Shown here: positions 36,460 to 60,480 of the stretch, one piece after another
How positions within the stretch are numbered: the first letter of the stretch is position 1
How the letters are laid out: the number at the start of each line of letters is the position of its first letter
NCBI GenBank assembly: GCA_026770025.1
Contig: JAMXDE010000024.1
Coordinates: 620,001 to 684,000 of the forward strand
DNA length: 64,000 nucleotides
Source: Craspedostauros australis
Taxonomy: Eukaryota > Bacillariophyta > Bacillariophyceae > Mastogloiales > Achnanthaceae
Direction: 5' to 3'
The notes under the pieces: generated by a model
What the model was told of the DNA's origin: nothing
Database searches by the model: none
Seen by the model: the letters and a program-made list of their open reading frames with translations, nothing else
Translations under genes and position numbers: made by a program

Positions 36460-36669
36460 TACCCTCTTGTGACCAAAGCCAGAATCCGACAAAAAATGTT
36501 GCTTTCGCCCTGGACCACTCCCGCCCGCCGGAAAAGTCAATCCCAAGCGGAGAGCATCATTGGTCCTCCTGGGTTCGCGACTCTTCCTGGCTGGGGGACC
36601 CAAATGCTTGTCTCGTGTGTGCTTCGCAGGCCAGTCCACTATGACACACAAACGTTATATTCTAGAATA
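36460..36669 (+). repeat. Duplicated upstream region, copy B, left part
   Basis: This matches 26412-26630 closely (a handful of mismatches over the first 180 bases). It is the far end of the second ATPase upstream region, cut off from its gene by the LINE that begins at 36670. Confidence 0.85.
36653..36669. repeat. LINE target-site duplication, left copy
   Basis: CGTTATATTCTAGAATA is repeated exactly at 60464-60480, on the other side of the LINE. The last 12 bases are a palindrome. Confidence 0.85.
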
Positions 36670-36769
36670 CAGTCCCGTGACCCTTCCACCGTTGAAGACG
36701 TACGTAGGACCAGTACAAAAAAATTTACGTAGAACCTGTAGAATCACTACCAGAGCAAAATCTTTGACA

Positions 36770-39176
36770 ATGGTGCGCACAGACGCACAAAACAACACTG
36801 GCAAAGCCAACCAGACGCCTCGCAAGCAAGTGACAATGGCACAGGGACGTTCAGGACGCGGCGGTCGTCAGGCCCGTGGCAAAGGCGCAAGTGGGGGAGG
36901 ACGAGGAGGCAAGAGACAGAGCAGAGACTCTCCGCCCAAAAAGGCACAAAAAACCACACCTCCGGCGAACGCGAACCGTTGGATTTGGAGTCATCACCAC
37001 AAGAGAAACTGGGGAGACATCCTGCGCGAGCGCAACCTGTTCACCCGAGGATCCGACCCGTTCACCGCGGTGTCCGGAGCCGAGGGGTCCCTCGATGAGA
37101 CCATCGCATTCGTCAAAGAGATGAGAGAGGACCTTGCCGGAGGGGCGTCACTGGAGCAGTGGAAGAAGCTATTCGAAGATGCGTACGACAACAAACTCCC
37201 AGCGGATTCCAACCTCACCGTGGTGCAAGTCATGGTGCGCTTGATAGCGATGTCGAACACTTTCTCTTCGTCGATGTGGAAGCTCGGTCAGATCAGAGCA
37301 ACCCACGAGACAGCGGCATGGATCGCGGCGCGCACGGTGTTCATGGAGGTCAAAGGTATTCACTTGGACAAAGACGACGGCACAGAAGAGACCCAGGCAA
37401 CGTCTCCAAACCCATCCTCGAAAAAGAAATCCCGCAAGCCCAGACACAAAGTGGTCACGTACCCAAGGAAGCAGCCACAGGCCAGGGAACTCATCAGCGT
37501 GAACGATGCGCTCAGCGACTTCCACAAGACCTTTTTCGACATCCGACTACCAATGTCCAGAGAGGGCAGTGAAACCCCGCTGGTGTAAGTGACAGCCGGC
37601 CTCAACGCGCTACGAGCATTCATCTTCAGAGCGGATTCCAAGGCACAGATCTTGGCGTGGCGTATGAGCAAGGAGCTCCGCCCGTGGACAGTGGCGGACG
37701 TGGCGTGGACCAACCGCGAAACACTGAAACAGTTCGTGGAGAGCTTGTACGCCAGAACCGGCTTCATGACTTACACCCGCATCTGGGTGGCGCACAAGCA
37801 GGACTTGGACGCCTTCGAAGACGACGGGTCGCTTGCCTCTGCTGCAATCTCGTTCAAGAGATCGCAGATTCAGGAGCACAACATTGTGGCAGCCGGGTGG
37901 CTTTTCGGTAGCCACAGTTCGATGAACACCGATGACATGTCGGAGGTCATCAACGAGAACGAGCTGGTGAAGAACCACTGCGTTGTCCAGCTCCGCATTC
38001 GCGAAATCCAACTCGTGAAGTGCCGAGGAAGACGTCCTGACACGGATGACTTCCGCAACAGGCCCCGAGCCACACACATCCTGTGCGGGGAGTCGAAGTC
38101 CAGAGAGTGCCGCCTGGCGATGAAAGAAATGTTTAACAACAGAGCAGACACCGTTCGCCTGTTGGGAAAACAGATGAGATTCATGCCGGACGCCTTGGAC
38201 CAACGCTTCCACCACCCACCCTCGGAGCTGGCGAACCTGAGCTCGATGGTTGCTCACCAAGTCGCGTTTGAGAAGAAGATGGTAACGCAAGGAGTCTACT
38301 CCATCATGCAACTGGACGTGGAGGTGCCAATTTGGAATCTCACACTTCGCGAAGTCATCATGAACCTGCGATCCTTCGACAACCCTGACTACACCCTCTT
38401 CGTATCGGTCGACACGGACAAGATGGACCGAAACAGAACAACATTTGTCTTCCATCCAAAACGACAAGTGGAGGCACGTGAGCTGATCTCGAAGCTGCCT
38501 TTCTTTTGCAGCAAGAAACTGGATCACAAATGCCAGGGCTGGTTCACACCGGAAGCCTGGGCCCAAAACGAGTTCTACGAAGAGGACTGGGAAACCGGCC
38601 TGGTCAGGAGCAAAGAAGAGCTTGAGATGGGTCAGTTGGCCCAGGCGGGAGCCCACTTTCTGGACCTGGATGAGGAGGAGATGGTCGGTCTCACCGCGGC
38701 AGATGTGGGATGGGAAGGATACGTCGACGAGCATGGAAACATGAAACCGGTGCTGTTGCTGAAGTTTGAAGTGGAAATGGTTACAAACCCAAGAACACAG
38801 AACGGCGACAACGGCACGGTGGCAACCTTCGCGACAGCCACAGTCGCCCAACAGTCTGCGCACATTGGATCGGCCATCACGAGCACGGCGAGGAACAAAT
38901 CAGCAAACCCCCATCGCTTTGCAACGGATCCATCGGCAAAGACGGACTTCGACGTGGACAACCCAGGCATCAGTATCCCTGAAGGAGAAGAGAGCAACAC
39001 CGACGAGGCAGGCTCCCCAGCAGGAGAGAGCGCGAAGGAAGGAGACAGCGGAGAGAGCACGAGCGAGGACGAGGGCAAAGAGGAGGAAGTCGAAAGCGAC
39101 GAAGACATCAACATGAGTGACCCAATGGAAACCGAAACCACCACGAACATCGGCGAAGCAGCCGCACAGCAAGAGT

Positions 39177-39178
<2 letters not shown>
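36770..39178 (+). pseudogene. LINE ORF1 (gag-like), one in-frame stop
   Basis: A frame of 802 codons is interrupted by TAA at 37586-37588. Apart from that stop the frame is open on both sides. The N-terminus is basic and Gly/Arg-rich (GRSGRGGRQARGKG), as expected of an RNA-binding protein. A folded middle carries many aromatic residues, and the C-terminus is highly acidic (about 110 residues rich in Glu, Asp and Ser). No CCHC knuckle or RRM is apparent. ORF1 proteins package element RNA. A CAA-to-TAA change would explain the stop. Programmed readthrough cannot be excluded, because everything after it is intact. Confidence 0.75.
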
Positions 39179-39211
<33 letters not shown>

Positions 39212-40229
39212 AATGACGGTTGGGCTTCGCCCACTTTCGCACGCCAGCCCTGGCGTCATTGTGTCTAACGGTTATTTTCTGCCTCTTTGCGCGCCGTACT
39301 GCTGTGTACGCGCGGCAGCCAGCCAGCCTTTACTCTCCGTTTCCAAGCGTGCCATGCCCCTTCACATGGCCACTTGCCAGTTGTGACACGCCGGCCGCTT
39401 CTGGCGAGACGTCAGTTTCTTCCGTTGCCTCTTTGGCTCCGCCAAACTGTTCATCTTCGCCGCCTTTTGTGTTTCCACCGCCCTTTTGCGCCTTGCTCAC
39501 GCGCACTTTGGGCACTCTGTCATTGCTCCTGACGCAACTGACACAGCTCTCCTTTGGCTCACAACAACACCACTGATGAAGTGAAAACGAAAGCCCTCTC
39601 CTGGCTTTGGTTGTTGCCAACCATGCTGATCCTACGGGGTACAATAAACGCTTTAAATCCAAATCGATTTTACTCGTTTTCCGTTTTTGGAACAGTCCTG
39701 CACGCTGGCCTGCTTCTGGTGCGCTTGTGTTTGCGTTCAAACGCACTCACTTGCTCGTTCTAGTTCGCAGCTCAGACCTTCGGTCTTCGCCACTCACCCA
39801 CCCACACACACACACACACACAACGAGACAAGACAGAAACAGCCAGCAGGGCAACAACAATCAGCGAATCCACAAGGTGAACCAGACAGGGCGACGCAGT
39901 TAAGCAACAAGCCAAGGTCAACGCGACAGAGACGACACGACACAGACAACACGACAGACAGGACCCTATACAGACAACACAACACAACCAACACGACACA
40001 GAATAAGACAAAGATAGTACAACAAGACCAAGACAAAGACAACAAGAGGCAGAGAAACAACACCAAATGCAAGCAAAACACCAGACGGCTACAAGACAAC
40101 AATCCACATCACGCCGTCACGGCCCATTGCCAACAAGGGAGCACGCTAATAAATAGGACGCGCGTCCCAACGTGACACTCACGCCTACACAGCCATACCA
40201 CAGCTTCCACAGAGTAGCGAACGGACACG
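39179..40229 (+). other. LINE inter-ORF spacer
   Basis: About 1 kb between ORF1 and ORF2. It begins with an (AC)n run at 39179-39209, then perfect short hairpins (GGGCTTCGCCC at 39222 and ACGCCAGCCCTGGCGT at 39241). A second AC run lies at about 39803-39823. The last 400 bases are C/A-rich and low in G/T until the ORF2 start. This could be an internal leader for ORF2 translation or an internal promoter, which is inference. Confidence 0.6.
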
Positions 40230-40906
40230 ATGGCTGACCAAGACAACCCACCGAACGCGAGTAGGCTAAACGATGCTTGCGGAGACGCGATGGAAAGCAA
40301 GACAAACGCGACAATTCGCATTGTGTTCCAGAACGCAGCTCAACTTCCCATTCACACCTACCAGCAGAATAATGAAGAGATCTTCGAATTCATAAAGACG
40401 AGCGATCTCGACATCCTGTGCCTGGCGGAAACAAACATACGGTGGGATCACGTCCGACCCCAGGACCAATGGTCGGAACGAACCCGGCGCCAGTTGCCGA
40501 GATCGAAACACGTCTTCGCATACAACACACACGACGACAAACGAGACCCCAGGATGTATGGGGGTGCAGGAGTGGTAGTGACAGCCCAAATCGCTGCACG
40601 CACATTCAAGAGCGGGGTCGACGAGAGTGGGATGGGAAGATGGTGCTGGACGCTTACCAAAGGAAAAAGCGACAAAAGGCTACGCGTTATTGCCGCGTAC
40701 ACGCCTTGCCGATCAACGGAAGGGACGAACACAGTTTGGTCCCAGCAGACGCGAGCACTGACATCGGCCGGTAGAGATGAAGACCCACACGAAGCATGGA
40801 TCAAGGAGATCGCGAACGAAATAAGGACCTGGAAGGCCGCGGGCGAATCCATTATCCTGGGCGTGGACCTCAACGACAGCACCATGGACAGCCGAACCCT
40901 ACACCA
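40230..40906 (+). pseudogene. LINE ORF2, part 1: AP-endonuclease N-half
   Basis: The ATG at 40230 opens the frame. Endonuclease motifs are visible in order: RIVFQNAAQL, LDILCLAETN (catalytic Glu), GGAGVVV, RVIAAYTPCRS and ILGVDLND. The frame is cut at 40906 by copia element 1. It continues in phase at 48179 once the insertion and one CACCA are removed. Nothing in this piece itself is broken. Confidence 0.85.
40902..40906. repeat. Copia 1 TSD, left
   Basis: CACCA directly precedes the left LTR and is repeated at 48174-48178 after the right LTR. Confidence 0.9.
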
Positions 40907-41570
40907 TAATAACACATCGAGCACTCCAACTACACTCGTCTTGGTAGCATTCGAATGAGTCGTGTGGTATTCGTGTACCACAGGACGAATACTGATGCAG
41001 TCATGAGACTCTTCGTGTGTGATGAATCGTAACGTCTTGATATCCGCAATTGCCGCAACCCTCATGTGGGATCGCTTTCTCGTCTCACAGACTGACTCGC
41101 AATTCAGATATATTGATTCCTCAATTCCACACCATCTTGTTGACACCTTGCAATTCAGATATATTGGTTCATCCAATAGATCTGAATAAGAGGTCCTCAA
41201 TTGCACAGCTTCAGAATTATGGCAGTACTGGTCATCGTGGACCTGAACGTGCCATCTGATCTTGTCTTCACCTCTGTGCTTGCAAACATGCATTTCCTCC
41301 CACATGTGAATGCAACAGTGCAAGGCATCATTTTACAGCAGTATTGCTGTGTGCAACTTGTGCAATCTCATTGCATCATCATCATCATCTTGCATTGCAC
41401 TCTTCATGCTCACAATTCTGACGTCAACAGATCAGAATTGGGCCAGCTTTCATTAACTTAATCATCTACTTGAGCACACACACACAATACCAACCATCTA
41501 CATACTTCATTGTCGGATCTGATCAGTCTCTATTTGAAGTAAGTACCCTGTATTGTATTCTGTTCTATCA
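40907..41570 (+). repeat. Copia 1 left LTR
   Basis: 664 bp, starting TAATAACAC and ending TCTATCA. It contains two copies of a 17-base unit, GCAATTCAGATATATTG, at 41099-41115 and 41150-41166. No difference from the right LTR was found by reading both through. Confidence 0.93.
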
Positions 41571-41586
41571 GATTAACAGTCGCACT
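41571..41586 (+). promoter_or_regulatory. Copia 1 primer-binding site (tRNA-Asn anticodon arm)
   Basis: GATTAACAGTCGCACT abuts the LTR and is identical to the same site in copia 2. Its reverse complement contains GCGACTGTTAATC, the anticodon stem-loop pattern of tRNA-Asn(GUU). That is an internal tRNA position, not the 3' CCA end. Confidence 0.6.
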
Positions 41587-41979
41587 TCTCTACGTCCTGC
41601 GCTGAACGCGTGACCATCATTCCCAAAGACTTTGTGACATTCGATAACGACCATCCTGCAACTCTCGTGACGACGTGAAGTTGCCTTCATCTCTGTGATT
41701 CAGCCATCGCTGCACAGAACATAAGAGCCATTCGGCTTGTGCACACTCACCCCATTCACTATTAGACGTATCCGTCAGTGAATTCTCTCATTGCTTCTTC
41801 AGCATTCATCATCCCATCATTCGATATCGATCGCATTCGATCTATCGACATCACAAACAAACATACAAACACAAACAAACAGACACATCAACAAATAAAC
41901 AAACATACAAACACAAACAAACATACACACCAACAAATAAACAAACAAACAAATAAACCAACAAACCAACAACATCATC
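41587..41979 (+). other. Copia 1 leader with A/C-rich tandem repeats
   Basis: This is the untranslated leader between the primer-binding site and gag. At about 41855-41970 it consists of tandem ACAAACAAACATACA-type units, unstructured and G-poor. CGTGACGACGTGA at 41666-41678 recurs in the leader of copia 2. Confidence 0.75.
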
Positions 41980-44900
41980 ATGACTACTCCTTCCTCCACC
42001 ATCTCCGAAGCCGAGATCTTCAACCATGTCGTCAGGTCCGTGGGCATTGCTGACGATTCTGATGCCAGAAGCCTGCTTGACCAACAGGGCATACTCAGCA
42101 TTGCCGACCTTCTTCTCCTCTCCAGGGAGGACCTACAGGCCTTCCAATACCAAGGTCTTGATGAGGATGGCGAAGCCTTTGTGTACGAACTCGATGCTCC
42201 TTGCATTCGTCGTATCCTCGCCCTTCCTCGCTGGTGGCAACATCAGGTTGACCCAACCTTTGTCACCTGGTACACCATCTCCCGCCATTCTCTTGCCGAG
42301 GCCATCGCATCGCCAATTGTCGCTCCAGCGGAAGCTGCAGCCGCGCGCGCAGCAGCCACAGCAGCCACCACAGCAGCAACTGCAGCAGCCACTGCAGCAG
42401 CTACTGCGGCAGCATCTTCAGCTCCAACACCTGATCCCATCACCTCAACCCCGGTCTCTTTGTCAGAATCCCGTCTCCAAGACTTCCGAAAGGGGATGAG
42501 ACGCAACAGCGAGCATTTTCCCAAGCTCAAGGATGATCGATTCTTCCTATCCTTCCGTCGCACCTTCATGACGGTCGCAGCCTCCCAAGGTGTCTCCGAT
42601 GTCCTGAACCCGGAGTACAAGCCTGCAGATGAGGACATGGTCCTCTTCCAAGAGCAGAACACCTTTGTCTACTGCACCTTGGTACTCTCCCTGAAGACTC
42701 AGAAGGGTCAGAGATGCGTCCGGAAGTTTGAGGACACCATGGATGGACAGGCTGCATTTGCAGCCATGCTCTCTGAGTATACCACCGGCGTGACCGCGTC
42801 CAATGCCGGGAAACATCTTCGCTCCATCCTCAACACCCTCAAACTGGACAAGGACTGGCGCGGCACTCGAGAGTCCTTCCTTGACTCGTGGTCCAACAAA
42901 GTGTACGATCTCGAAGTCATCCAAGATGACGAGGTTGATGCTGATCGCAAACGCGATTGGTTGGAGGAAGCCATCTCTCCAGACACCGAGCTCTACCGTG
43001 CCCTATTTGAGTCCCAGTACCTCGAGGCATCCCTACATGCAATGAGCATTGACGGTGTCTCAGCAGAGTTCACACTCGACTTCGAGCGTACTTTCGCGCT
43101 CGTACGCAGCCATGCTCAACGTCTCGACCGTGTCAAGCCTCGCGGACGTTCCAGTCGCAAGGTGAATAATGCCAAGCACTCCGGTGCTCGAGGCCAAGCA
43201 CAGACATGGAGCAAGGATAAGGATTACTCCAAGGATCCTCGTCCTCGTATCCCACGCGAGGAATGGATGAAGATGGAGCGGTCTCAGCGTCAAGCATTCC
43301 TTGAAGCCAAAGGAAAATGGGATCCCAATCGCGGAAAGGGCGGACGTCAACGCGCTGCCAACAAGGCAACTACCTCCAAGTCGGATGGGCATTCTGCAAC
43401 TCCATCTGCCAATGCTGCCGATGCCAACACAACCACCACTCCTCCTGCTCAACCTGGAGATTCCATCAACCGCATGTTGGCGAATGCCAAGTCCACACCT
43501 TCCACTGACGAACCCATCCTGACCTACAAGGGTCAGACCTGGCGCCTTGCCAACCAGGCAATGGTCCGCTACGACTTCCACAAGACATCCAAAGCTCATC
43601 ATGGATCTCTCGTCGACAGCGGTGCCAATGGTGGCCTGGCTGGCGACGACGTCCTTGTACTGTGCAAGACTGGTCACACAGCGGATGTCAATGGCATTGG
43701 CGATTCTGCGATTGCCAACCTTGACATTGGGACTGTTGCTGGACTTGTCGACACCACCGAAGGTCCCATCATTGCCGTATTTCACCAATACGCTCTGTAC
43801 GGAAAGGGGAAGACCATCCATTCTTCCAACCAACTCGCTTCCTTCGGCATCGACGTCAATGAGCGGCCACGACACCTGCCAGGCGGTCGACAGACCATCA
43901 TCACAACCGATGGCCGCGTCATCCCCCTCTCGATTCGTCATGGTCTGTCCTACATGGACATGCGTTGTCCTACCCGTGATCAGCTCGGCAAGTACCCTCA
44001 CGTCGACTTCACAGCTGACTCTGTGTGGGATCCCTCTGCCCTCGACCAAGAGCTTGACATCTCCGATGTCAGTGGAGACGACAAAGGTTCTTCCACCCCA
44101 ATCTCTGGACAAGAGCTCGACGTGTTCGTCACTGATGGTGAACCAACACGTGGCGAGACCTCGGACCACTCAGGAGGCATTGAGCTCAGCTCTGCTCCTG
44201 TCGACTATGAGGCCCTTCGTCCTCATTTCGGTTGGATCCCGGCTCGCCGTGTCCGCGACACATTGCGATGCACCTCGCAGTGGTACCGGACGGCGGAGCG
44301 CTTTTCCATGCGCAAACACTTCAGGACACGATTTCCGGCTGCCAACGTCGATCGTCTCCATGAAGTTGTGGCTATGGATACTCTCTTTTCGGACACTCCT
44401 GCACATGATGACGGCATTGCTGGACACGGCGGATGCACCATGATGCAGATCTACGTCGCTCTGCAGTCTCGATTCACAGCAGGGTTCCCCATGTCTTCCG
44501 AGAAGCAAGTTGCCAACACCTTCCTCGACTTCATCCGACACCATGGTGCGCCCGACCTTCTCATGTCGGATAACGCCAAGTCCGAGATTGGCTCCAAGGT
44601 TCAGGAGATCCTCCGCCAATACGCCATCAAAGACCATCAGAGCGAACCCGAGCATCAGCATCAGAACGGTGCGGAACGGCGTATTCAAGACATCAAGCGT
44701 ACCACCAATGGGATCATGGACCGCACTGGGACACCCGCCAAGTTTTGGCTGATCTGCACCCAGTACATCATCTCTCTGCTCAACCACATCGCGCAGCGCA
44801 CGGTTGGCAGCATCACTCCTTTCCAGGCCGCCTACGGGCACCGGCCAGACGTAAGCAAGTTCCTTGCTTACCGATGGTGGCAACCCGTGTACTTCCGAGT

Positions 44901-47484
44901 CGACAAGCCAGGCTTCCCCAGCCATTCCAAGGAGAGGCTGGGACGGTGGGCCGGCCCGTGCTTTCACAAGGGTGACGATCTCACCTTTTGGATCCTCGAT
45001 GACGCGTCGCAACGGCTTCTTCCTCGATCCACCATTCGCCCAGCGGACGATCCATCCACCAAGAACTTGCGTGCGGACTTTCCCCTTCCCATGGTTGGGG
45101 AGGACGAGGATGCAGCGACAGAGGCATCAGACCATGGGGAGTACGAGGATGACATCCCTGACTCTCCTGAGGCCGATACTGTTGTTCACACTCTCTCCGA
45201 CGCCATTCTTTTCGACTCCATGAGCACTGCATCAGGAACCATGGACAAGGGAGCGGTTTCCGTCCCCAAGTTCACCCCAGAGGATCTCATTGGTATGTCC
45301 TTCATTCACCATCAAGATGGACACAAGGTCCGTGCCGAGGTCATCCGCAAGGTCAATGATATTGACGCGGACAACCACCAACGCATCAAGATGATTCTCT
45401 CTCTCAATGATGGGGAGACCAATGATCTGATGGCCTACACTGAGCTGTCAGACATCATCGAACAGCAACAGGCAACGGGTGAAGCCGATGGCACATGGAC
45501 CTTCATTGACATCATCGGTCATGAGGGCCCACTCTCATCCTCATCATCATCTTACAAAGGATCAAGATACAACGTCAAGGTCCAATGGGATGATGGATCT
45601 ACATCCATGGAACCCCTCTCTGTCATGATACAGGATGATCCCGCGACATGTGCTGCATACGGTCGGACACATGGTCTACTCCAAGAGCCAGGATGGAAGC
45701 GTCTCCAGCGTCTCTCCCAACGGCAGACTCGCATGAGACGTGAAGTCCATGTTGCCAAGTCTCGCACCTCCGGTTCGGTCCCTACCTACCAGTTCGGAGT
45801 CCAAGTGCCCAACAATCATCGTGAGGCCATGACCCTCGACCAACAGAACGGCAACACCTTCTGGGCTGACGCAGAGAGGAAAGAGATGGACCAACTCTTT
45901 GAGTATGGTACCTTTGAAGTCCTCGGACACCTCTCCAAGCCTCCAGATGGACACCAGAAGATCAGACTCCAATGGGTGTATGCTGTCAAACACGACCTCC
46001 GCCACAAAGCGAGATGTGTCGCTGGAGGGCATCTAACACGACCATGCAAGGACATGTCGTATGCGGGTGTGGTCAGCCTTCGATCACTGCGCCTCGCTCT
46101 ACTGGCTGGTGAGCTCAACGGTCTCACCACAATGGTGGGTGACATCGGGAACGCATATCTTGAGGCATATACGCAGGAGAAGATCTGCTTCATCGCTGGT
46201 GAGGAATTTGGAGAGCATGCCGGTAAGATGATGCGTATCGTCAAGGCACTCTACGGCCTGCGCACATCAGGCGCTCGGTTTCATGAAGCTCTTGCAGATA
46301 CCCTCAGAGATGTCGGATTCGTCCAATGCCGCTCTGACCCAGACGTATGGATGCGAGATGCTACTTCCCACTGGGAGTACATCTGTGTCTATGTCGATGA
46401 CCTGATGGTCACCATGAAGGATCCCCAATCCTTTTTCGACCTTCTGATCTCCAAGTATGGCTACAAACTCAAGGGAGTTGGGCCAGTGCAGTACCATCTC
46501 GGTGCTGACTTCAATCGAGATCCAGATGGAACCATGAAGATCAGCCCCCGATCCTACATCAAGCAGATTCTGATCAACTACGAGCGCATGTTCGGAGAGC
46601 TGCCAAAGAAGGCAAGCTGCCCCCTCGATAAGGCAGACAGCCCAGAGCTCGACACATCCGAAGAGCTCTCCGACGTGGACAAGAACAAGTTCATGTCCAT
46701 CATCGGCACCCTTCAATGGTGCGTCACCCTTGGCAGATTTGACATATCTGTTGCAGTGATGACACTCTCCAGATTCCGATCCTCGCCGCGCAAGGGCCAC
46801 CTCGATCGAGCCAAGAGAATCTATGGCTATCTTCGCAAACACCAAGATGGGGCCATCCGCTTCCGCACAGGCATACCACAACATGAGGAGCACTTCGAGG
46901 TACCACAGCAGGATTGGCTGTACTCCGTGTATGGCAACACATCAGAGGAAATCGCGAAGGATGCTCCTGTGCCAAGAGGCAAGATCGTCAGAACCACTTC
47001 ATTTGTTGATGCCAACCTCATGCATTGCAAGGTAACCGGTCGATCGGCCACTGGAGCTCTTCATTTTGTCAACCAAACACCCATCGAATGGTTCAGCAAA
47101 CGACAGGCCACCGTTGAGACCGCAACCTATGGGTCTGAATTCGTCGCGGCCCGTCAAGCCACCGAACACATCATATCTCTTCGTCTTGCTCTGAGAGAGA
47201 TGGGCATCCCTCTTGATGGTCCCAGTTGGCTGTTTGGTGACAACCAATCAGTCATAACTTCGTCCACCGTGCCCATGAGCATGCTGACCAAGAGACACAA
47301 TGCACTTGCATACCATCGTGTCCGTTCCGCCATCGCATCTGGAACCATCCACTTCATCAAGATCCCAGGAACACAGAATGTGGCTGACATCTTGACGAAG
47401 TTCCTACCGTGGGCAGCATTCTGGCCTCTCATCCAACCAATCCTATTCTGGAGAGGTGACACCATCCGTTCACACAACAAGTGA
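41980..47484 (+). CDS. Copia 1 gag-pol polyprotein
   Basis: One frame encodes 1834 residues. Gag has an Ala/Thr/Pro-rich low-complexity tract (about 110-155) and a basic Arg/Lys/Gly-rich C-terminus. No CCHC knuckle was seen. The protease has DSGANGGLAGDD (catalytic Asp near 546). The integrase catalytic triad is Asp800 (AMDTLFS), Asp864 (MSDNAKSE) and Glu899 (NGAERRIQD). A chromo-like segment lies near 1190-1235 (YNVKVQWDDGSTSMEPLSV). The reverse transcriptase has YVDDLM (first Asp near 1473). RNase H has FVDANL (near 1677), YGSEF and FGDNQS. All key catalytic residues appear present and the frame is unbroken. Gag and Pol are fused without a frameshift. The product would be cut by its own protease into capsid and enzymes. 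It shares domain order and long matching stretches with copia 2. Confidence 0.95.
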   Translation: MTTPSSTISEAEIFNHVVRSVGIADDSDARSLLDQQGILSIADLLLLSREDLQAFQYQGLDEDGEAFVYELDAPCIRRILALPRWWQHQVDPTFVTWYTISRHSLAEAIASPIVAPAEAAAARAAATAATTAATAAATAAATAAASSAPTPDPITSTPVSLSESRLQDFRKGMRRNSEHFPKLKDDRFFLSFRRTFMTVAASQGVSDVLNPEYKPADEDMVLFQEQNTFVYCTLVLSLKTQKGQRCVRKFEDTMDGQAAFAAMLSEYTTGVTASNAGKHLRSILNTLKLDKDWRGTRESFLDSWSNKVYDLEVIQDDEVDADRKRDWLEEAISPDTELYRALFESQYLEASLHAMSIDGVSAEFTLDFERTFALVRSHAQRLDRVKPRGRSSRKVNNAKHSGARGQAQTWSKDKDYSKDPRPRIPREEWMKMERSQRQAFLEAKGKWDPNRGKGGRQRAANKATTSKSDGHSATPSANAADANTTTTPPAQPGDSINRMLANAKSTPSTDEPILTYKGQTWRLANQAMVRYDFHKTSKAHHGSLVDSGANGGLAGDDVLVLCKTGHTADVNGIGDSAIANLDIGTVAGLVDTTEGPIIAVFHQYALYGKGKTIHSSNQLASFGIDVNERPRHLPGGRQTIITTDGRVIPLSIRHGLSYMDMRCPTRDQLGKYPHVDFTADSVWDPSALDQELDISDVSGDDKGSSTPISGQELDVFVTDGEPTRGETSDHSGGIELSSAPVDYEALRPHFGWIPARRVRDTLRCTSQWYRTAERFSMRKHFRTRFPAANVDRLHEVVAMDTLFSDTPAHDDGIAGHGGCTMMQIYVALQSRFTAGFPMSSEKQVANTFLDFIRHHGAPDLLMSDNAKSEIGSKVQEILRQYAIKDHQSEPEHQHQNGAERRIQDIKRTTNGIMDRTGTPAKFWLICTQYIISLLNHIAQRTVGSITPFQAAYGHRPDVSKFLAYRWWQPVYFRVDKPGFPSHSKERLGRWAGPCFHKGDDLTFWILDDASQRLLPRSTIRPADDPSTKNLRADFPLPMVGEDEDAATEASDHGEYEDDIPDSPEADTVVHTLSDAILFDSMSTASGTMDKGAVSVPKFTPEDLIGMSFIHHQDGHKVRAEVIRKVNDIDADNHQRIKMILSLNDGETNDLMAYTELSDIIEQQQATGEADGTWTFIDIIGHEGPLSSSSSSYKGSRYNVKVQWDDGSTSMEPLSVMIQDDPATCAAYGRTHGLLQEPGWKRLQRLSQRQTRMRREVHVAKSRTSGSVPTYQFGVQVPNNHREAMTLDQQNGNTFWADAERKEMDQLFEYGTFEVLGHLSKPPDGHQKIRLQWVYAVKHDLRHKARCVAGGHLTRPCKDMSYAGVVSLRSLRLALLAGELNGLTTMVGDIGNAYLEAYTQEKICFIAGEEFGEHAGKMMRIVKALYGLRTSGARFHEALADTLRDVGFVQCRSDPDVWMRDATSHWEYICVYVDDLMVTMKDPQSFFDLLISKYGYKLKGVGPVQYHLGADFNRDPDGTMKISPRSYIKQILINYERMFGELPKKASCPLDKADSPELDTSEELSDVDKNKFMSIIGTLQWCVTLGRFDISVAVMTLSRFRSSPRKGHLDRAKRIYGYLRKHQDGAIRFRTGIPQHEEHFEVPQQDWLYSVYGNTSEEIAKDAPVPRGKIVRTTSFVDANLMHCKVTGRSATGALHFVNQTPIEWFSKRQATVETATYGSEFVAARQATEHIISLRLALREMGIPLDGPSWLFGDNQSVITSSTVPMSMLTKRHNALAYHRVRSAIASGTIHFIKIPGTQNVADILTKFLPWAAFWPLIQPILFWRGDTIRSHNK

Positions 47485-47503
47485 TATCATCGACATACGA
47501 TTC

Positions 47504-48173: not shown

Positions 48174-48178
48174 CACCA
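48174..48178. repeat. Copia 1 TSD, right
   Basis: CACCA, the second copy of the 5-bp duplication at 40902-40906. Confidence 0.9.
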
Positions 48179-51840: not shown

Positions 51841-52449
51841 TATTAGCTCAAACTAGTATTCCTATTAGTCGTGTTAAGATTTAGTCTAGTTAGTCAAATG
51901 ACCGACTGCTCAGAGTTTGAGCGGGATTGAAGCGTGACTCAATGTCGGTGGGATGGGGTCCCACCCTCGAATCGTGCTCTACTTAAGACGATGTCGCGTG
52001 TCCGCTGAATTTGGGTTTGGGCGATCGTGCCATCCCACGCCACTTATGGGCGTGACATGACGTGTCCTGAACGGACAATCGGGTCAAACCGTTGGATGAA
52101 CCTTGTTCCCCCAAATTGATCGGAAGAGAGTGAACAACAAACTCTCTCTCCGACCGTCACGAAATTGATGTCTCCTCTCGGAAATGGCAACATCGACACC
52201 ACGATGATTGCACGTACGGAGACTCAACGCTCCACTATGTTACTACTAATAGAGATGTTGCAGATCCAACTATAATGGATGCTGCGCATCACATGCTCAC
52301 AATCCTTTTGAAAGTCTCATTTGGATTCGTACAGCTTTAAAGACTAAGACACACTCTCACTCTCAAACTCACCAACCTACTGCACTACCACGGATTGATC
52401 ACCCTTCGGCGTTCAGTAAGTTCACTTCGTTTTCATTATCGTTTTATCA
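51841..52449 (+). repeat. Copia 2 left LTR
   Basis: 609 bp, starting TATTAGCTC and ending TTTTATCA. A short inverted repeat (GGGATGGGGTCCCACC) lies near 51949. TTTAAAG at about 52335 is a possible TATA-like element. No difference from the right LTR was seen. Confidence 0.93.
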
Positions 52450-52465
52450 GATTAACAGTCGCACT
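52450..52465 (+). promoter_or_regulatory. Copia 2 primer-binding site (tRNA-Asn anticodon arm)
   Basis: The same 16 bases as in copia 1 (GATTAACAGTCGCACT) directly follow the LTR, although the surrounding leaders have diverged. That conservation is the main evidence that the site is functional. Confidence 0.6.
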
Positions 52466-52930
52466 CGCTCCACACCTGTGTTGATCGAGTGAATATCCTC
52501 TTCATCTGCTTCCAGCATCCTCAGCTACCTCACGTGACGACGTGACACTCTCTGCCCAGTCCTCTGTGCAGACACACTCTTCTGTTCGGATTCCACCGTT
52601 CAGCTCCACTCGGCTTCGGCCCTCGCGCGCTCACCACACTCCAGACATCACAGTCCAAGTGTGTAAACTCCTTCTTTCCAAACTGCTTCACACGCCAATC
52701 CTCTCTTGAATCGAAAACAACTCGTCACAGACGATTGATCAAGTGTGCTTTCCTGCTCTATTTCTTGAATCGTACAACAACATCGCCCACGGCGATCTAC
52801 GCGAGAAACCAGAAATATCAAGACAAACAAACACTCCGCCAACTACAACAAAACAAACACAAAACAAACAATTTCCATCACATCAATCACATCAACTATC
52901 ACCCATCACCCATCTCCGAACGCTTTCACC
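52466..52930 (+). other. Copia 2 leader
   Basis: A 465-base untranslated leader that becomes A/C-rich before gag (about 52800-52925). It contains CGTGACGACGTGA at 52533-52545, shared with the copia 1 leader. No coding sequence was seen. Confidence 0.7.
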
Positions 52931-55900
52931 ATGGCTACCAACACCAACGTCACCGACACCAACGAGTACACCATACTCAACCACGTCTTGTCCGTCATCG
53001 GCATTCAGGCCCATTCTTGGCAACGTCGCGCTCTCAACGAGGCCGGCATCGCTAACGCAATGGACCTGATTCATCTCGATAAGCCTGCCCTCTTGGCAAT
53101 CGAGGTGACCGACGACGACGACAACACATTCCGTCCCATGAATGTGCTTGTTGTCAACAAGATCCTCGCTTTGGTACGCTGGATCAATCTCCAACCACGA
53201 TTGACTCCCGATGAATGGATGAGTGTCGACATGTACGACATCTCACACCCATCTGTCATCGGGGCCGCGGGTCCTCGGACCCCAGCCAGCTACCATCCAC
53301 GAGGAGGTGTCGGCATCATTCCTCCCAGTACTCGCACTCGCCGTACTGTGGACGATGATGAGGATATCGAATCTGTGTCCCCGCCTGATCGGGCCAGATT
53401 TGCTACTCCTGTGACCAACCCTTCGGCACGCGTTGCAACAGCGGAAACTCCAACCGCTGCTGCTCCTGTGCCAAGTGTTGCATTCGCTCCGGCGAGCGCT
53501 CTCCCAGAGTCGTTCACCAAGGAGTTCAGCCGTGGTGTTAAGCGTGAGGCCCTCGCATTCCCCACCCTGAAGGATGACAAGCGTTTCCTTTCGTTCCGGC
53601 GCCAATTCGAAGCGATCGCGTATACTCATGGACTTGAGTATCACATCGATCCTTCGTGGGAGCCGGGTCCATCGGACATGTTGTTCTACAACATGCAGAA
53701 CAGGTACTTGTACTCTGTTCTGAGCCTCCATGTCAAGACTTCGCGTGGCGACCAACTCCTCCGCAAGCATCAAGCGAGCAAGGACGGTCGAGCTGTGTAT
53801 CAGAGTCTCGTAGAGATTTACACCAATGGTGTCAACGGTGAAAGCGCGGCAATGGCACTTCGTGCTCGCATCGCCTCTTTCACCTTGGATAACAGCTGGA
53901 AGAAGAACCGCGAGAACTTCGTGGACACCTGGCAGGGAATCATCTCCGATATCGAAGATATGGAAGATGACGCTCTGCCGGACAACACGAAGAAGACGTG
54001 GTTGCACAACTCGATTGCTCTGGACAAGGATCTCCTCAATGCTCTCACGAGCACTTCCTACGTCCGCGACGAGATGCTCGCAGCCATGCCCTCCGGTTTC
54101 GAGATCAAGGCGGCTGGATTCGACCACCATCTCAACTCGGTTCGGATCCATGCACAACGCCTCGATTCTTCCCACCCTCGTCAGACGCAAAAGCGTAACG
54201 TCAACAACGCTGCGACAGGGAAAGGAAAGGGTGGTTCTTCGGGCAAGTCTCCTGCCAAAGGCAACGGCAAGACTTACACCAACGACAAGCGCGGCCGCAT
54301 TCCAAATGAGGAATGGGCAACCATGTCTTGGGCCCAGAAGAAGGACTACATGCACAACAACCCCTCCCGTAGTGCTGGCAAGGGCGACACCTCGCATGCC
54401 GCTAATAAAGCCAAGTCCTCGGGTAACTCTTCGTCCACTCCGGCGACCAACGCTCCCGCTTCCTCCGACGCTGGCGGCAATGCGGATTCAAAGGGCGGTC
54501 CTCCGGGATCTGCTATCAACCGCATGCTCGCGCAGGCTCGTCAGTCTGGTCAATCGACCGCTGACTTCGTCGATTCTGAGGGCGGGGCGTGGCGACGGGT
54601 GAACTCTACTGTGGTCCGGTACAACTTCGAGACCTCGGTGGAAACGAAGACGGGTGCGCTCGTCGACAGTGGCGCCAATGGCGGCCTCGCTGGCGACGAC
54701 GTGCTAGTTCTGTGCAAGACGGGCACCACGGCAGACGTGAGCGGCATTGGTGATTCCACCATTGCGAGTCTGGACATTGGTACGGCCGCGGCCCTGCTTC
54801 ACACGAGCAGCGGCCCGATCATCGCCAAGTTCCATCAGTACGCTCTGTACGGGAAGGGCAAGTCCATCCACTCCACCAACCAGCTCTCTGCGTTCGGTAT
54901 GGATGTGAATGAGCGCCCGCGTGGTCTCCCTGGTGGTCGACAAACCGTCGTCACACCTGAGGGGCACGTCATCCCACTGTCCATTCGTGCTGGCCTGTCC
55001 TACATGGATATGCGCCCGCCAACCCCTGCTGAGATGGATCGGTACCCTCATGTGGACTTCACGTCCGATGATGTCTGGGACCCTTCCATTCTCGATCAGG
55101 AGTTTGGTCTTGATGATGTCCGCGCTCTCGCGGACGATGATGATGATGGTTCCGCGCTCGCCGACCTCGATCGCCTGCATGTATATGCGGCATCGACGGA
55201 TGAGGCGCGCGGCACTGTACCGCATTCCGGGTCCGCTGGCAAATCCGGTTCCGTTCGTGTTCGCAGCTCGCCCATCGACTATGAGGCACTGCGTCCGCAC
55301 TTCGGCTGGATCCCTGCTCGTCGGATCAAGGACACTCTCGGTTGCACTTCCCAGTGGTACCGCACTTCGGAACGATTCGCGATGCGCAAGCATTTTCGCA
55401 CTCGTTTTCCGGCGGCCAACGTCGATCGTCTTCACGAGACGGTCGCGATGGACACTTTCTTCTCTGATACACCCGCTCATGATGACGGTGTCCCTGGCCA
55501 TGGTGGCTGCACCATGATCCAGGTGTTCGTTGCGCTCGACTCTCGGTACACATCAGGATTCCCGATGGCGTCCGAGCGGCAGGTCGCGGACTCCTTGCTC
55601 GACTTCATTCGTCGGCATGGAGCGCCCGATCTACTAATGTCGGACAACGCGAAATCAGAGGTGGGATTCAAAGTGCAGGACATCCTGCGTCAATACGCAA
55701 TCAAGGATCACCAGAGTGAGCCGGAGCACCAACACCAGAACGGAGCCGAACGCCGCATACAGGACATCAAACGTACTGTCAACGGCGTCATGGATCGCAC
55801 GGGTACCCCGTCGCGGTTCTGGCTCATCTGCACGCTGTATGTCATTGACTTGTTCAATCACATCGCGCAGCGCACGTGTGGTAATGTGACCCCGTCACAG

Positions 55901-58576
55901 GCTGCCTTCGGGCAGCGTCCGGATGTCAGCAAGTACCTCGCGTACTACTGGTGGCAACCGGTCTACTACCGTGTGGAACGTCCTGGCTTCCCGAGTGAGT
56001 CCAAGGAGCGCCGCGGCCACTGGGCTGGTCCGTGTCTCCACAAGGGCGACGACCTCACATTCTGGGTGCTCGACGATGCGACACAACAACTCCTGTCTCG
56101 GTCTGCTATCCGCGCCGCCGATGATGCCTCTACTCGCAACTTGAGAGCCGACTATCCTTTTCCACTCGTGGGGGAGGATGCCGATTCTGCGACTACTGTA
56201 TCAGACAGCGATGACGGTGACTACACAGACAACACCATTCCCTCCGATGTTGAACCCATCGTTCACGCATTATCGGATGCTGTTTTGTTCTCACATCAAG
56301 AGACAGAATCACGCACAAGTGGAAAGGACGTCGTTTCCGTTCCAAAGTTCACACCCGAAGAACTTTTGGGCAAAACAATTTTGTTCCACCGCAATGGACA
56401 AAACGTCCGTGCCGAAGTGATCCAAAAGATCAACGATTCAGACGCTGAGAACCATCAGCGTATCAAGATGCTCCTATCACTTAACGATGGGGAGCTTCAC
56501 GAACTGATTTCGTATGTCGAACTTTCCGACGTCTTCGAGCAACAAACCACGGATGGTGCGACAAACAACCCGCAGGCAGGGAGCACATGGTCTTTCCAAG
56601 ACATCGTGGACCACGAAGGTCCCCTCGCTCAGACATCCCCATCCTACAAGGGATCAAAGTACAATGTCACTGTACTTTGGGATGACGGTTCCAAAACGTC
56701 CGAACCGTTATCTGTCATGGCGAAGGACGACCCGGTCTCTTGCGCTACTTATGCGCGGAAACACGATTTGCTTGGTGTTCCTGGGTGGAAGCGTTTCCGA
56801 CAAATCGGTATTCGCCAAACCTCGATCGCTCGTGCAATCGCCACCAACAAGGCGAACCGCAGCAACACACCCGTATTCCAATTCGGCGTTCAGGTACCGC
56901 ACAACCACAAGGAAGCGTTGATGCTTGACGCCAAGAACGGCAACACGCTGTGGGCTGACGCCGAGCGCAAGGAGATGGACCAGCTCACGAGCTACGAAAC
57001 CTTCAAGACCCTCGGATACCACGCCAAGGTACCTGATGGGTTCCAGAAGATTCGCCTCCAATGGGTATACGCCGTGAAGCACGATCTGCGCCACAAGGCC
57101 AGATGCGTCGCTGGCGGCCATTTGACCGCACCATGCAAGGACACAGCATACGCTGGAGTCGTCAGTCTCCGTTCTCTCCGCCTCGCACTACTCGCTGGGG
57201 AGATGAATGGACTGCAGACCATGGTCGGCGACATCGGCAACGCGTACTTGGAAGCCTACACCAAGGAACGCATCTGCTTCGTCGCTGGAGATGAGTTCGG
57301 AGACAAGGCCGGTCACACGATGCAAATCGTCAAGGCGCTCTACGGCCTCCGCACTTCCGGCGCACGCTTCCACGAAGCGCTCGCAGACACACTCAGGGAC
57401 CTGCAATTCTTCCAATGCAGATCAGACCCTGATGTGTGGATGCGCGACGGTGGTGACCACTGGGAATACGTCTGCGTCTACGTGGACGATCTCATGGCCA
57501 CCATGAAGGACCCGCAAGCCTTCTTCGACACCCTCACTTCGGTCTACGGATACAAGCTGAAGGGCGTCGGACCCGTCTCGTACCACCTCGGCGCTGACTT
57601 CGGTCGCGATAGCGATGGCACCATGAAAATGAGCCCGCAATCGTACATCAAGCGCATGCTCGGCAACTACGAGCGCATGTTCGGTTGTGCCCCCACGAAG
57701 GCCAGCTGCCCACTCGACCATTCCGACAGCCCGGAACTCGACAAGTCGCCTGAGCTCTCCGAGATCGACAAACGCAAGTTCATGTCGCTGATCGGCGCGC
57801 TACAATGGTGCATCACCCTCGGACGGTTCGACATCTCTGTCGCCGTCATGACCCTCGCACGCTTCCGTGCCGCCCCTCGCAAAGGTCATCTCGAGCGCGC
57901 ACAACGCGTCTACGGGTACCTGCGCAAGCATCCCGATGCCGCCATCCGGTTCCGCACGGGCGTCCCAAACCACGAAGAGAGTTTTGTTGTTCCCAAACAC
58001 GACTGGCTCTATTCCGTGTACGGGCACACACAGGAGGAAACTGACCCAGACGTGCCCACTCCAAAAGGCGCGATCGTCCGCACCACCACCTTTGTGGATG
58101 CAAACCTCCTCCACTGCAAGGTCACCGGCAGGTCGGCAACTGGCATCCTACACCTTGTCAACCAAACTCCCATCGAGTGGTTCAGCAAGCGCCAAGCCAC
58201 CGTCGAGACTGCTACCTACGGATCCGAGTTCGTTGCTGCCCGACAGGCCACCGAACAGATCATCTCTCTCCGCCTCGCTCTTCGCGAAATGGGCATTCCC
58301 ATCGATGGTCCCAGCTGGATGTTCGGTGATAACCAAAGTGTCATCACCTCATCTACTGTGCCTATGAGCATGTTGTCCAAGCGGCACAATGCTCTCGCCT
58401 ACCACCGAGTCCGGTCCGCCATCGCCGCCGGGGTCCTCTACTTCGTCAAAATCCACGGCTCGCAAAATGTGGCCGACATCATGACCAAGTTCCTACCATG
58501 GGCATCCTTCTGGCCCCTCGTCAAGCCTCTGCTCTTCTGGAAGGGCAACAGTCCCTCTCTGGATCGCGTCACCTGA
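52931..58576 (+). CDS. Copia 2 gag-pol polyprotein
   Basis: One unbroken frame encodes 1881 residues, starting at CACCATG. Gag has a central Ser/Ala-rich tract and a basic C-terminal region (GKGKGGSSGKSPAKGNGKT). No CCHC knuckle was seen. Protease: DSGANGGLAGDD (Asp near 579). Integrase triad: Asp841 (AMDTFFS), Asp905 (MSDNAKSE) and Glu940 (NGAERRIQD). Chromo-like segment: YNVTVLWDDGSKTSEPLSV (near 1245). RT: YVDDLM (Asp near 1519). RNase H: FVDANLLHC (near 1723), YGSEF and FGDNQS. Every catalytic motif seen in copia 1 is present. The chromo-like segment and the absence of a zinc knuckle are shared by both elements. Confidence 0.95.
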   Translation: MATNTNVTDTNEYTILNHVLSVIGIQAHSWQRRALNEAGIANAMDLIHLDKPALLAIEVTDDDDNTFRPMNVLVVNKILALVRWINLQPRLTPDEWMSVDMYDISHPSVIGAAGPRTPASYHPRGGVGIIPPSTRTRRTVDDDEDIESVSPPDRARFATPVTNPSARVATAETPTAAAPVPSVAFAPASALPESFTKEFSRGVKREALAFPTLKDDKRFLSFRRQFEAIAYTHGLEYHIDPSWEPGPSDMLFYNMQNRYLYSVLSLHVKTSRGDQLLRKHQASKDGRAVYQSLVEIYTNGVNGESAAMALRARIASFTLDNSWKKNRENFVDTWQGIISDIEDMEDDALPDNTKKTWLHNSIALDKDLLNALTSTSYVRDEMLAAMPSGFEIKAAGFDHHLNSVRIHAQRLDSSHPRQTQKRNVNNAATGKGKGGSSGKSPAKGNGKTYTNDKRGRIPNEEWATMSWAQKKDYMHNNPSRSAGKGDTSHAANKAKSSGNSSSTPATNAPASSDAGGNADSKGGPPGSAINRMLAQARQSGQSTADFVDSEGGAWRRVNSTVVRYNFETSVETKTGALVDSGANGGLAGDDVLVLCKTGTTADVSGIGDSTIASLDIGTAAALLHTSSGPIIAKFHQYALYGKGKSIHSTNQLSAFGMDVNERPRGLPGGRQTVVTPEGHVIPLSIRAGLSYMDMRPPTPAEMDRYPHVDFTSDDVWDPSILDQEFGLDDVRALADDDDDGSALADLDRLHVYAASTDEARGTVPHSGSAGKSGSVRVRSSPIDYEALRPHFGWIPARRIKDTLGCTSQWYRTSERFAMRKHFRTRFPAANVDRLHETVAMDTFFSDTPAHDDGVPGHGGCTMIQVFVALDSRYTSGFPMASERQVADSLLDFIRRHGAPDLLMSDNAKSEVGFKVQDILRQYAIKDHQSEPEHQHQNGAERRIQDIKRTVNGVMDRTGTPSRFWLICTLYVIDLFNHIAQRTCGNVTPSQAAFGQRPDVSKYLAYYWWQPVYYRVERPGFPSESKERRGHWAGPCLHKGDDLTFWVLDDATQQLLSRSAIRAADDASTRNLRADYPFPLVGEDADSATTVSDSDDGDYTDNTIPSDVEPIVHALSDAVLFSHQETESRTSGKDVVSVPKFTPEELLGKTILFHRNGQNVRAEVIQKINDSDAENHQRIKMLLSLNDGELHELISYVELSDVFEQQTTDGATNNPQAGSTWSFQDIVDHEGPLAQTSPSYKGSKYNVTVLWDDGSKTSEPLSVMAKDDPVSCATYARKHDLLGVPGWKRFRQIGIRQTSIARAIATNKANRSNTPVFQFGVQVPHNHKEALMLDAKNGNTLWADAERKEMDQLTSYETFKTLGYHAKVPDGFQKIRLQWVYAVKHDLRHKARCVAGGHLTAPCKDTAYAGVVSLRSLRLALLAGEMNGLQTMVGDIGNAYLEAYTKERICFVAGDEFGDKAGHTMQIVKALYGLRTSGARFHEALADTLRDLQFFQCRSDPDVWMRDGGDHWEYVCVYVDDLMATMKDPQAFFDTLTSVYGYKLKGVGPVSYHLGADFGRDSDGTMKMSPQSYIKRMLGNYERMFGCAPTKASCPLDHSDSPELDKSPELSEIDKRKFMSLIGALQWCITLGRFDISVAVMTLARFRAAPRKGHLERAQRVYGYLRKHPDAAIRFRTGVPNHEESFVVPKHDWLYSVYGHTQEETDPDVPTPKGAIVRTTTFVDANLLHCKVTGRSATGILHLVNQTPIEWFSKRQATVETATYGSEFVAARQATEQIISLRLALREMGIPIDGPSWMFGDNQSVITSSTVPMSMLSKRHNALAYHRVRSAIAAGVLYFVKIHGSQNVADIMTKFLPWASFWPLVKPLLFWKGNSPSLDRVT

Positions 58577-58603
58577 TCTGCTACCTACATCGAGACACAC
58601 TTT

Positions 58604-58609
58604 GGGGAG
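58604..58609 (+). promoter_or_regulatory. Copia 2 polypurine tract
   Basis: GGGGAG abuts the right LTR, identical to copia 1. Confidence 0.75.
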
Positions 58610-59218
58610 TATTAGCTCAAACTAGTATTCCTATTAGTCGTGTTAAGATTTAGTCTAGTTAGTCAAATGACCGACTGCTCAGAGTTTGAGCGGGATTGAA
58701 GCGTGACTCAATGTCGGTGGGATGGGGTCCCACCCTCGAATCGTGCTCTACTTAAGACGATGTCGCGTGTCCGCTGAATTTGGGTTTGGGCGATCGTGCC
58801 ATCCCACGCCACTTATGGGCGTGACATGACGTGTCCTGAACGGACAATCGGGTCAAACCGTTGGATGAACCTTGTTCCCCCAAATTGATCGGAAGAGAGT
58901 GAACAACAAACTCTCTCTCCGACCGTCACGAAATTGATGTCTCCTCTCGGAAATGGCAACATCGACACCACGATGATTGCACGTACGGAGACTCAACGCT
59001 CCACTATGTTACTACTAATAGAGATGTTGCAGATCCAACTATAATGGATGCTGCGCATCACATGCTCACAATCCTTTTGAAAGTCTCATTTGGATTCGTA
59101 CAGCTTTAAAGACTAAGACACACTCTCACTCTCAAACTCACCAACCTACTGCACTACCACGGATTGATCACCCTTCGGCGTTCAGTAAGTTCACTTCGTT
59201 TTCATTATCGTTTTATCA
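58610..59218 (+). repeat. Copia 2 right LTR
   Basis: 609 bp, apparently identical to the left LTR. It ends TTATCA and is followed by CCCTG. Confidence 0.93.
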
Positions 59219-59223
59219 CCCTG
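59219..59223. repeat. Copia 2 TSD, right
   Basis: CCCTG, the second copy of the duplication at 51836-51840. Confidence 0.9.
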
Positions 59224-60350
59224 GGCAACGGGACTGGGACATTCTTACCGAGATCCGTGCACTGCGCCATGAAATCCAAGCTACCCTGAAGTGGGAGTGG
59301 GTGAAAGGCCACCAAGACGACACCGGGAAGCAACTGACGACTCTGGAGCAGCTCAATGTTGTGGCCGACGAACAGGCCAAACTGTTCTGGACCGACACAG
59401 CGGATCGAAGGCTGGTGAAGCGCTGGGAAACTGATATGGAAAGATGGCGCTTGCGCTTACGCAATGCGGACTATTCACACGTCGACGCGAGAGAACTGCA
59501 TGAACTTCTGCAATCGGCGGCGGCTGCAACCTATTGGTCGTCGAAATTCCAATGGGACGAAGCCCAACTGACCCAAGTGGACTGGCATACGTACAAAAAG
59601 GCCCGGTCGTCGAAGAAGAACAAAGAGATGACGTGGTTCATATCGAAGTGGTCTTCAGGCTTTGTCGGGGTGAACAAGAAGCTGCACCAGATGGGCCAAA
59701 AGGACTCACCAAAGTGCCAATTTTGTGCGCAGGAAGAGACGACGATTCACGTCCTGCAGTGCAGCGAGCACCAGGAGGCGTGGCAGGAAGCCACGGCGGC
59801 GCTTTTGGACCGAATGGTGCGCATCGGTACTTGCCCACGGTTGGTCGGCAACATGCGAGTGGGGTTGGTCAGATGAAGACGCAACCGGAACAACGAGGGG
59901 CCGCAAAGCCACGTTGGGTGGTATCCTCTCCTCGTCGGATTCGTCCACAGGGACTGGAGGCGACAGCAGAAACTATGGATGCAGACCCACGAGTGTCAGT
60001 AACCGGATGCCAAAGCCTGGGCACGTGAGATGGTGCGTTGGATATGGAAGGTTCCATGGGCGGTGTGGAACGCTCGAAACGCGAAGGTACACGAGAGCGA
60101 TCAGCACCCGACGACGAAGGACCTGCGCCAGCAGGTGCGACGGATGCTCCAGAGCAACAGTCGGGACATGAACGAGTCAGAGCTCCACCTCCTCCGAGAC
60201 GGAAGAAACATCGAGTATGGCACGGAAGCGCAAATGCGACAATGGGTTGGCGCTATGACGGCGGTACAGGCGGCGGTGAAGGCCAGGCGACGAACACGGT
60301 CGATGCAGGCAGAACGGCAGACCATGGCAGCATGGCTAGGATTAGTATGA
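59224..60350 (+). pseudogene. LINE ORF2, part 3: RNase H end and Cys/His tail, two stops
   Basis: This resumes part 2 in phase after removal of copia 2. It has WEWVKGHQDD and NVVADEQAK (the end of RNase H with the last catalytic Asp), then a zinc-knuckle pattern CQFCAQEE with distal HVLQC. TGA at 59874 and TAA at 60000 interrupt the frame, yet homology-like sequence continues in the same frame to 60350 (GWYPLLVGFVHRDW before the second stop, WAVWNARNAK after it). The element therefore lost the last 160 residues of its ORF2 product to two point changes. Confidence 0.8.
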
Positions 60351-60463
60351 GTGGCAACACTTGACAGCTCGCTCAAAGCCGTGCCCTATGGGGCCGGTGG
60401 CGGCGAGGGTAAAGCCTCGAGGCACATCTATGATGTAATCACTGAGTTATTATTATTATTATT
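60351..60463 (+). other. LINE 3' untranslated region and (TTA)n tail
   Basis: A 113-base 3' end ends in five TTA repeats (60447-60463) instead of a poly(A). A short simple-repeat tail is typical of I-type LINEs. The right TSD follows directly. Confidence 0.8.
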
Positions 60464-60480
60464 CGTTATATTCTAGAATA
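60464..60480. repeat. LINE target-site duplication, right copy
   Basis: Exact second copy of the 17 bases at 36653-36669. Confidence 0.85.

Follow-up and report, generated by a model that had tools for sequence, protein, structure and literature searches.

Nested insertion of a LINE and two Ty1/copia elements in the genome of the diatom Craspedostauros australis

A LINE interrupted by two copia elements

We analysed a 64-kb stretch of the genome of the diatom Craspedostauros australis (contig C22, positions 620001-684000; hereafter the window), in which a long interspersed nuclear element (LINE), a retrotransposon without long terminal repeats (non-LTR), is interrupted by two Ty1/copia elements, A and B. 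The arrangement is almost certainly an ordinary nested insertion, first of the LINE and then of the two copia elements. The boundaries of the nest, its target site duplications (TSDs), the identical LTRs of each copia element and the empty sites in two sister copies of the LINE are all directly visible, and the nest offers a worked example of how an insertion order can be shown within one genome through sister copies. The two copia insertions, in a diatom, look very recent. In itself the nest changes little. An earlier note on the window had described the nest as three-layered; its depth is two. All features given below lie on the forward strand.

The LINE is full length (36670-60463), measures about 8.5 kb without its inserts and ends in a (TTA)n tail. 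It is bounded by two exact copies of the 17-bp sequence CGTTATATTCTAGAATA, at 36653-36669 (5') and 60464-60480 (3'). These are the only two occurrences of the 17-mer in the window, in agreement with the TSD that had been claimed for the element. The absence of LTRs, the 17-bp TSD and the (TTA)n tail are those expected of a LINE of the apurinic/apyrimidinic endonuclease (APE) type. A search of the genome (74.8 Mb, 90 contigs) with the 3' end of the LINE, in which 40 of 71 candidates received a score, returned at least 45 matches; the LINE itself is among them, and several matches represent different pieces of the same copy. Among the matches listed, the sisters L009 and L011 (on C61 and C34) are the sole other places at 93%. 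They are 90-95% identical to the window LINE piece by piece and about 93% overall. L009 shares the 5' start of the LINE and has its own TSD, and L011 could be aligned only from 36877.

The first open reading frame (ORF1; 36770-39178) comprises about 800 codons with one in-frame stop (37586-37588). Its start was taken as the first ATG inside the element, the frame being already open from 36473, outside the LINE. ORF1 matched no Pfam family in scans of the window copy and of L009, and no homolog was found with the 890-residue stop-to-stop frame of L009 (L009:6136-8805) as query, about 55 residues of which come from repeats outside the element. ORF2 is split into three pieces. The first (40230-40906) contains the start codon and most of an APE-type endonuclease, with a PF03372 match below the cut-off; the second (48174-51840) contains the end of the endonuclease, the reverse transcriptase and the start of RNase H; and the third (59219-60350) contains the end of RNase H and the C-terminal region and is interrupted in frame by stops at 59874 and 60000. 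The first five bases of the second and third pieces belong to the TSDs of the copia elements.

The domain assignments draw largely on the sister copies and more distant homologs. PF03372 matches L011 ORF2 above the cut-off (E=2.4e-6, residues 50-289). Pfam gave no reverse transcriptase match in the window LINE or L011; RVT_1 is present in three of four scanned ORF2 homologs (29-35% identical; 116 homologs in all), and an alignment of 28 ORF2 sequences shows almost no variation in the VDD block. A weak zf-RVT match in the LINE protein falls below the cut-off (E=0.0026). For RNase H, Pfam gave no match in the LINE ORF2, and L011 ORF2 matched no PDB sequence at E<=0.1. The residues D26, E68, D96, H141 and D160 are invariant across a 207-residue fragment of L011 (L011:1134-1754) and 27 of the 116 homologs. 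The structure of this fragment was modelled with a predicted local distance difference test score (pLDDT) of 85.9, and the best PDB match of the model is RNase HI (E=4.6e-8). As judged from these matches and the model, the LINE is of the APE type, with a predicted endonuclease, reverse transcriptase and RNase H all in ORF2. It shares with APE-type LINEs that have a C-terminal RNase H the domain set in one ORF2, the long TSD, the short-repeat tail and the weak zf-RVT match, but it differs from them in an ORF1 that lacks a Pfam family or protein homolog.

Three in-frame stops of the window LINE, overlooked in the earlier note, are absent from both sisters. Each sister has private stops as well: L009 has a single one, when a codon between two compensating gaps is set aside, and L011 has two. 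Codon comparison of the window LINE with L009 and L011 gives ratios of nonsynonymous to synonymous substitution (dN/dS) of 0.081 and 0.102, which point to purifying selection, as expected for lineages that selection keeps active.

Copia A (40907-48173) has LTRs at 40907-41570 and 47510-48173 and is flanked by the TSD CACCA (40902-40906 and 48174-48178). Copia B (51841-59218) has LTRs at 51841-52449 and 58610-59218 and is flanked by CCCTG (51836-51840 and 59219-59223). Both TSDs were read from the repeats and their flanks and from the empty sites in the sisters; the exact repeat of copia B continues one base further leftward, this base being the last of the TSD on one side and part of the polypurine tract on the other. 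The two LTRs of each element are identical, over 664/664 bases in A and 609/609 in B, and start with TA and end with CA in both elements instead of forming TG...CA. TG...CA ends are usual in Ty1/copia elements, though not universal. Each element has a single open frame (A: 41941-47484, 1847 amino acids stop to stop; B: 52769-58576, 1935 amino acids stop to stop), followed by GGGGAG ahead of the 3' LTR, and each matches RVT_2, the copia-type reverse transcriptase (E=4.2e-25 in A and 6.1e-24 in B). A pattern search found neither an HHCC nor a zinc-knuckle motif in A or B. A and B are Ty1/copia elements of different families, and the claim that two such elements lie inside the LINE, each with a 5-bp TSD, holds in full.

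The primer binding site (PBS) is located at 41571 in A and at 52450 in B. In both elements GATTAACAGTCGCACT adjoins the 5' LTR, with 15 nt that are the complement of positions 26-40 in the tRNA-Asn of this genome; the eight other complete copia A elements have 14 nt complementary to tRNA-Asn. The pairing with internal nucleotides and not with the 3' end of the tRNA suggests a half-tRNA primer, and minus-strand synthesis is probably primed by the 5' half of tRNA-Asn. For the fungal FunCo1 copia elements, a PBS is described that corresponds to an internal region of tRNA-Lys (PMC5445492).

Empty sites and the order of insertion

At the positions of both copia elements, site A and site B, the aligned pieces of L009 and of L011 overlap by exactly five bases, which correspond to the TSD, and contain no insert. 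These junctions are natural empty sites for both copias and reveal that the LINE came first and both copias later, as had been proposed. They also confirm to the base the joins given in the earlier note (40906 to 48179 and 51840 to 59224). L011 has a single open frame over both empty sites (reverse complement, 4230-8867), so that the continuity of the frame at the junctions is seen without reconstruction; L009 also has one frame over both sites, except for its own stop near site A. The claim that ORF2 is restored in frame is therefore correct at both junctions, but the window LINE carries the three further in-frame stops. In the more distant copies L074, L075 and L013 the alignment begins at residue 172 of ORF2 and continues beyond both sites; that of L013 consists of two adjoining pieces read in different frames. 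Of the at least 45 matches, five LINE copies were examined, and the same copia insertions occur in none of them; a copy that shared them would have spoken against the proposed order. The site of the LINE itself is empty in a tandem gene paralog about 10 kb upstream (26412-26798), in which 26412-26591 pairs with 36460-36639 and 26622-26798 pairs with 60489-60657.

The amount of decay agrees with this order. About 4.5% of random substitutions in the LINE frames yield a stop, so the three stops suggest about 66 substitutions in the LINE, whereas 2,546 LTR lineage bases are without a difference. If all were of one age, the chance of this contrast with the three private stops would be 0.0019, in a test that presumes stops acquired after the LINE had inserted and LTR pairs unaffected by homogenising gene conversion. 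The LINE is thus older than the copias, as nesting alone requires. The order of copia A relative to copia B is unreadable, because both show zero LTR differences, and the insertion order that the earlier note considered readable is limited to the LINE preceding the copias.

In this reading, the APE-type LINE entered the region just ahead of one of two duplicated gene copies, where it left the 17-bp TSD, and then decayed for some time. Later, two Ty1/copia elements of different families entered ORF2, each leaving a 5-bp TSD. Going by what is known of these families, the LINE would have used target-primed reverse transcription and the copias their integrases. A further segment of about 590 bp, located in the CA tract between the two LINE frames, most likely inserted on its own at some date.

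A probable insert in the LINE spacer

This segment, which we call X (39212-39798), was also overlooked in the earlier note. It separates ORF1 from ORF2 inside a (CA)n tract and is absent from L009 and L011, alignments to which show an extra segment at about 39205-39803. A genome search with X found no other copy; 67 nt alone are shared, with seven loci. While X is most likely a separate insertion, an alternative explanation is that it represents an ancestral spacer of the LINE, lost by deletion between flanking CA tracts before L009 and L011 parted. The mutual closeness of L009 and L011, which are about 97% alike and closer to each other than to the window copy, weighs against a separate insertion, as one deletion would suffice, and direct CA repeats are found on both sides of X. 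However, the shared motif also occurs at other loci, next to CA tracts or flanked by them and at places unrelated to the LINE, which suggests that such elements exist independently of it. We consider an ancestral spacer fairly unlikely; the distant LINE copies, whose 5' half is different, are unable to polarise gain versus loss of X. X is the lead to pursue in an otherwise ordinary transposon nest.

A hammerhead-like motif shared with other loci

The 67 nt shared with other loci (39552-39618) resemble a hammerhead ribozyme, with a CTGATGA core at 39573. The seven other loci (L045-L051) show 82-84% identity to this part of X. Five of them (L045, L047, L048, L049 and L050) are placed between CA tracts 660-680 bases apart, and L046 and L051 have a CA tract on one side only. 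The units at these loci resemble each other and not the remainder of X, and on C2 two motif units stand in tandem, 785 bases apart.

The motif in X reads CTGATGA A GU GAAA AC GAAA, and most others read CTGATGA A GA GACA UC GAAA; one pair of stem II is changed on both sides. The CUGANGA and GAAA core is invariant in seven aligned sequences (the window and six of the seven loci), with an extra A after CUGAUGA, and by our reading of the alignment stems I and III can also pair, with the cleavage position that they surround located where a hammerhead would have it. In a pairing test on six distinct rows, 96.7% of cells were paired, versus at most 43.3% when the pairing was slid. Covariation amounts to one pair changed on both sides, and 83 of 500 shuffles perform equally well. 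A pattern search of the genome gave 14 matches, of which eight are this motif including X, and the reversed pattern gave none. A descriptor composed after the motif was known gave 0 of 200 shuffles, a figure that is biased as an estimate of probability. Rfam returned no hammerhead match to E=1 for the window or for eight loci. Its matches to other families were below gathering scores and were taken for low-complexity chance. With RNAfold the full hammerhead fold is the minimum in none of four motif sequences (z-scores -2.39, -1.19, -1.72 and -0.55), and the third stem is present in all four. We tentatively describe the layout as that of a putative minimal type I hammerhead ribozyme; from the sequence features, the case that the motif is or was a hammerhead appears about evenly balanced.

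A more speculative and rather doubtful proposal is that X and the seven loci belong to a loosely related group of mobile elements that are short and non-coding. Such elements would bear a minimal type I hammerhead whose core has one additional adenosine, would insert into (CA)n microsatellites and would propagate through a self-cleaved or circular RNA copied by the reverse transcriptase of another element. They would be a stramenopile counterpart of retrozymes, one of which was caught by the LINE spacer. A viroid hammerhead is known to have an additional adenosine behind its core, and CA repeats can harbour Penelope-like elements. A search for a Penelope-like driver gave three GIY-YIG matches, one of them on C5; the frames of the two others resemble by eye a UvrB/UvrC-type and a MutS-type protein, and in these two no Penelope-like protein was recognised. 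The loci described here share with retrozymes and with Penelope-like elements that carry minimal type I hammerheads (PMC7229834, PMC7761336, PMC6155905) the short repeats, the CTGATGA...GAAA core, the type I layout and the tandem pair (on C2). Compared with these elements, the units in this genome are about 590 bp (X) or 660-680 bp (five others) between CA tracts, and they differ in the extra A after the core, a stem II of two pairs and the silence of Rfam. Among the papers listed for hammerheads together with diatoms, none reports a diatom hammerhead in its title or abstract opening. If the motif is real, the range of ribozyme-bearing non-autonomous elements would extend to diatoms, and the link to CA microsatellites would provide a testable handle on integration.

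Target choice and the case against the nest

Site A corresponds to about residue 229 of L011 ORF2, within the PF03372 match, and site B to about residue 111 of the modelled L011 fragment, between D96 and H141. Given the PF03372 match at site A and the invariant residues and RNase HI-like model at site B, both insertions are in catalytic domains, the endonuclease and RNase H, as the earlier note had stated, and both are in sense, on the same strand as the LINE. These positions could suggest that the copias target LINE catalytic domains or prefer the sense orientation. However, two sense insertions are expected by chance in one case out of four, and the orientation and the domain positions may both be due to chance. 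Among 28 other LTR loci of copia A (40 flanks), the proteins of the LINE and six relatives match at a single place, on C26, where a duplicated solo-like LTR lies about 0.6 kb upstream of the match, and the 300-bp flanks of seven other copia B elements have no match to this LINE's proteins; such flank comparisons would miss LINEs of other families. The TSD sequences show no common motif by eye either, and targeted integration is very unlikely.

The same surveys inform on the two families, with 30 of 49 match rows fetched for copia A and its TSDs read by eye. Matching 5-bp TSDs were present in nine of nine complete copia A elements and at seven of 12 solo-like LTR loci; the latter seven include two pairs with shared flanks and one locus that requires a 3-nt shift of the LTR end. 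For copia B, TSDs matched by script in six of seven further elements and in the seventh after a 2-nt shift. In eight of the nine complete copia A elements the two LTRs are identical, and the remaining pair has a single-base difference, which suggests that the family moved very recently. At C15:31546-45684, three copia B LTRs with spacings of 6767 and 6766 bases form two elements with a shared middle LTR, probably a recombination product.

Apart from the presumptions of the age test, several points speak against the nest as we describe it. The integrase (rve) match in copia A, upstream of RVT_2, is weak and below the cut-off (residues 837-901, E=0.049), the Pfam scan found no integrase match in copia B, and five of the 12 solo-like copia A LTR loci have no clear TSD. 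An assembly artefact, in which copia sequences were wrongly joined into the LINE, would fit with both families being multi-copy and with a nest known from the assembly alone, but it is exceedingly improbable in view of the exact 5-bp TSDs at both junction pairs, the two sister copies with empty sites, and the recurrence of a 5-bp TSD in other family members, which is not expected of a chimeric join.

Related elements and the neighbourhood of the nest

Insertion of one transposable element (TE) into another is already in print for diatoms: PMC2806351 names Blackbeard and Surcouf as cases and describes an element that lies within another and is flanked by a duplication of 5 bp, ACAAG. The LTR pairs of diatom Ty1/copia elements (CoDi groups) are reported to be 94-100% identical (PMC2806351). 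The CoDi copias share with A and B the diatom host, the copia-type reverse transcriptase, high LTR identity, TE-in-TE insertion and the 5-bp duplication, but TG/CA LTR ends are given for 23 of 26 families, versus TA/CA here. The text of that paper mentions a PBS once and a tRNA nowhere.

The related LINEs L074, L075 and L013 (on C2, C3 and C34) are about 97% alike, keep ORF2 only from residue 172 and have a different 5' end of about 770 bp. They form a chimeric, probably non-autonomous LINE family.

The window also contains duplicated genes at 27390-31715 and 61226-64000, the first with an AAA_16 ATPase domain and the second aligning in pieces; the LINE is located directly upstream of the second copy. 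Upstream of the LINE is a dispersed repeat, from 35650 to 36224-36482, of which the genome has at least 39 further copies, with 78-91% similarity. Diatom genomes are reported to have 3-8 silicon transporter genes each, and the Parmales, sisters of the diatoms, one or two each in genomes of 31.0-43.6 Mb (PMC10328945). The silicon transporters mark the host as a diatom; the best matches of one light-harvesting protein were chains named LHCI, followed by several fucoxanthin chlorophyll a/c proteins. Silicon transporter domains are strongly expanded across the genome studied here, with 88 match rows, to which allelic contigs and multi-domain genes may contribute; of 32 matches of nearly full length, 28 lack stops.

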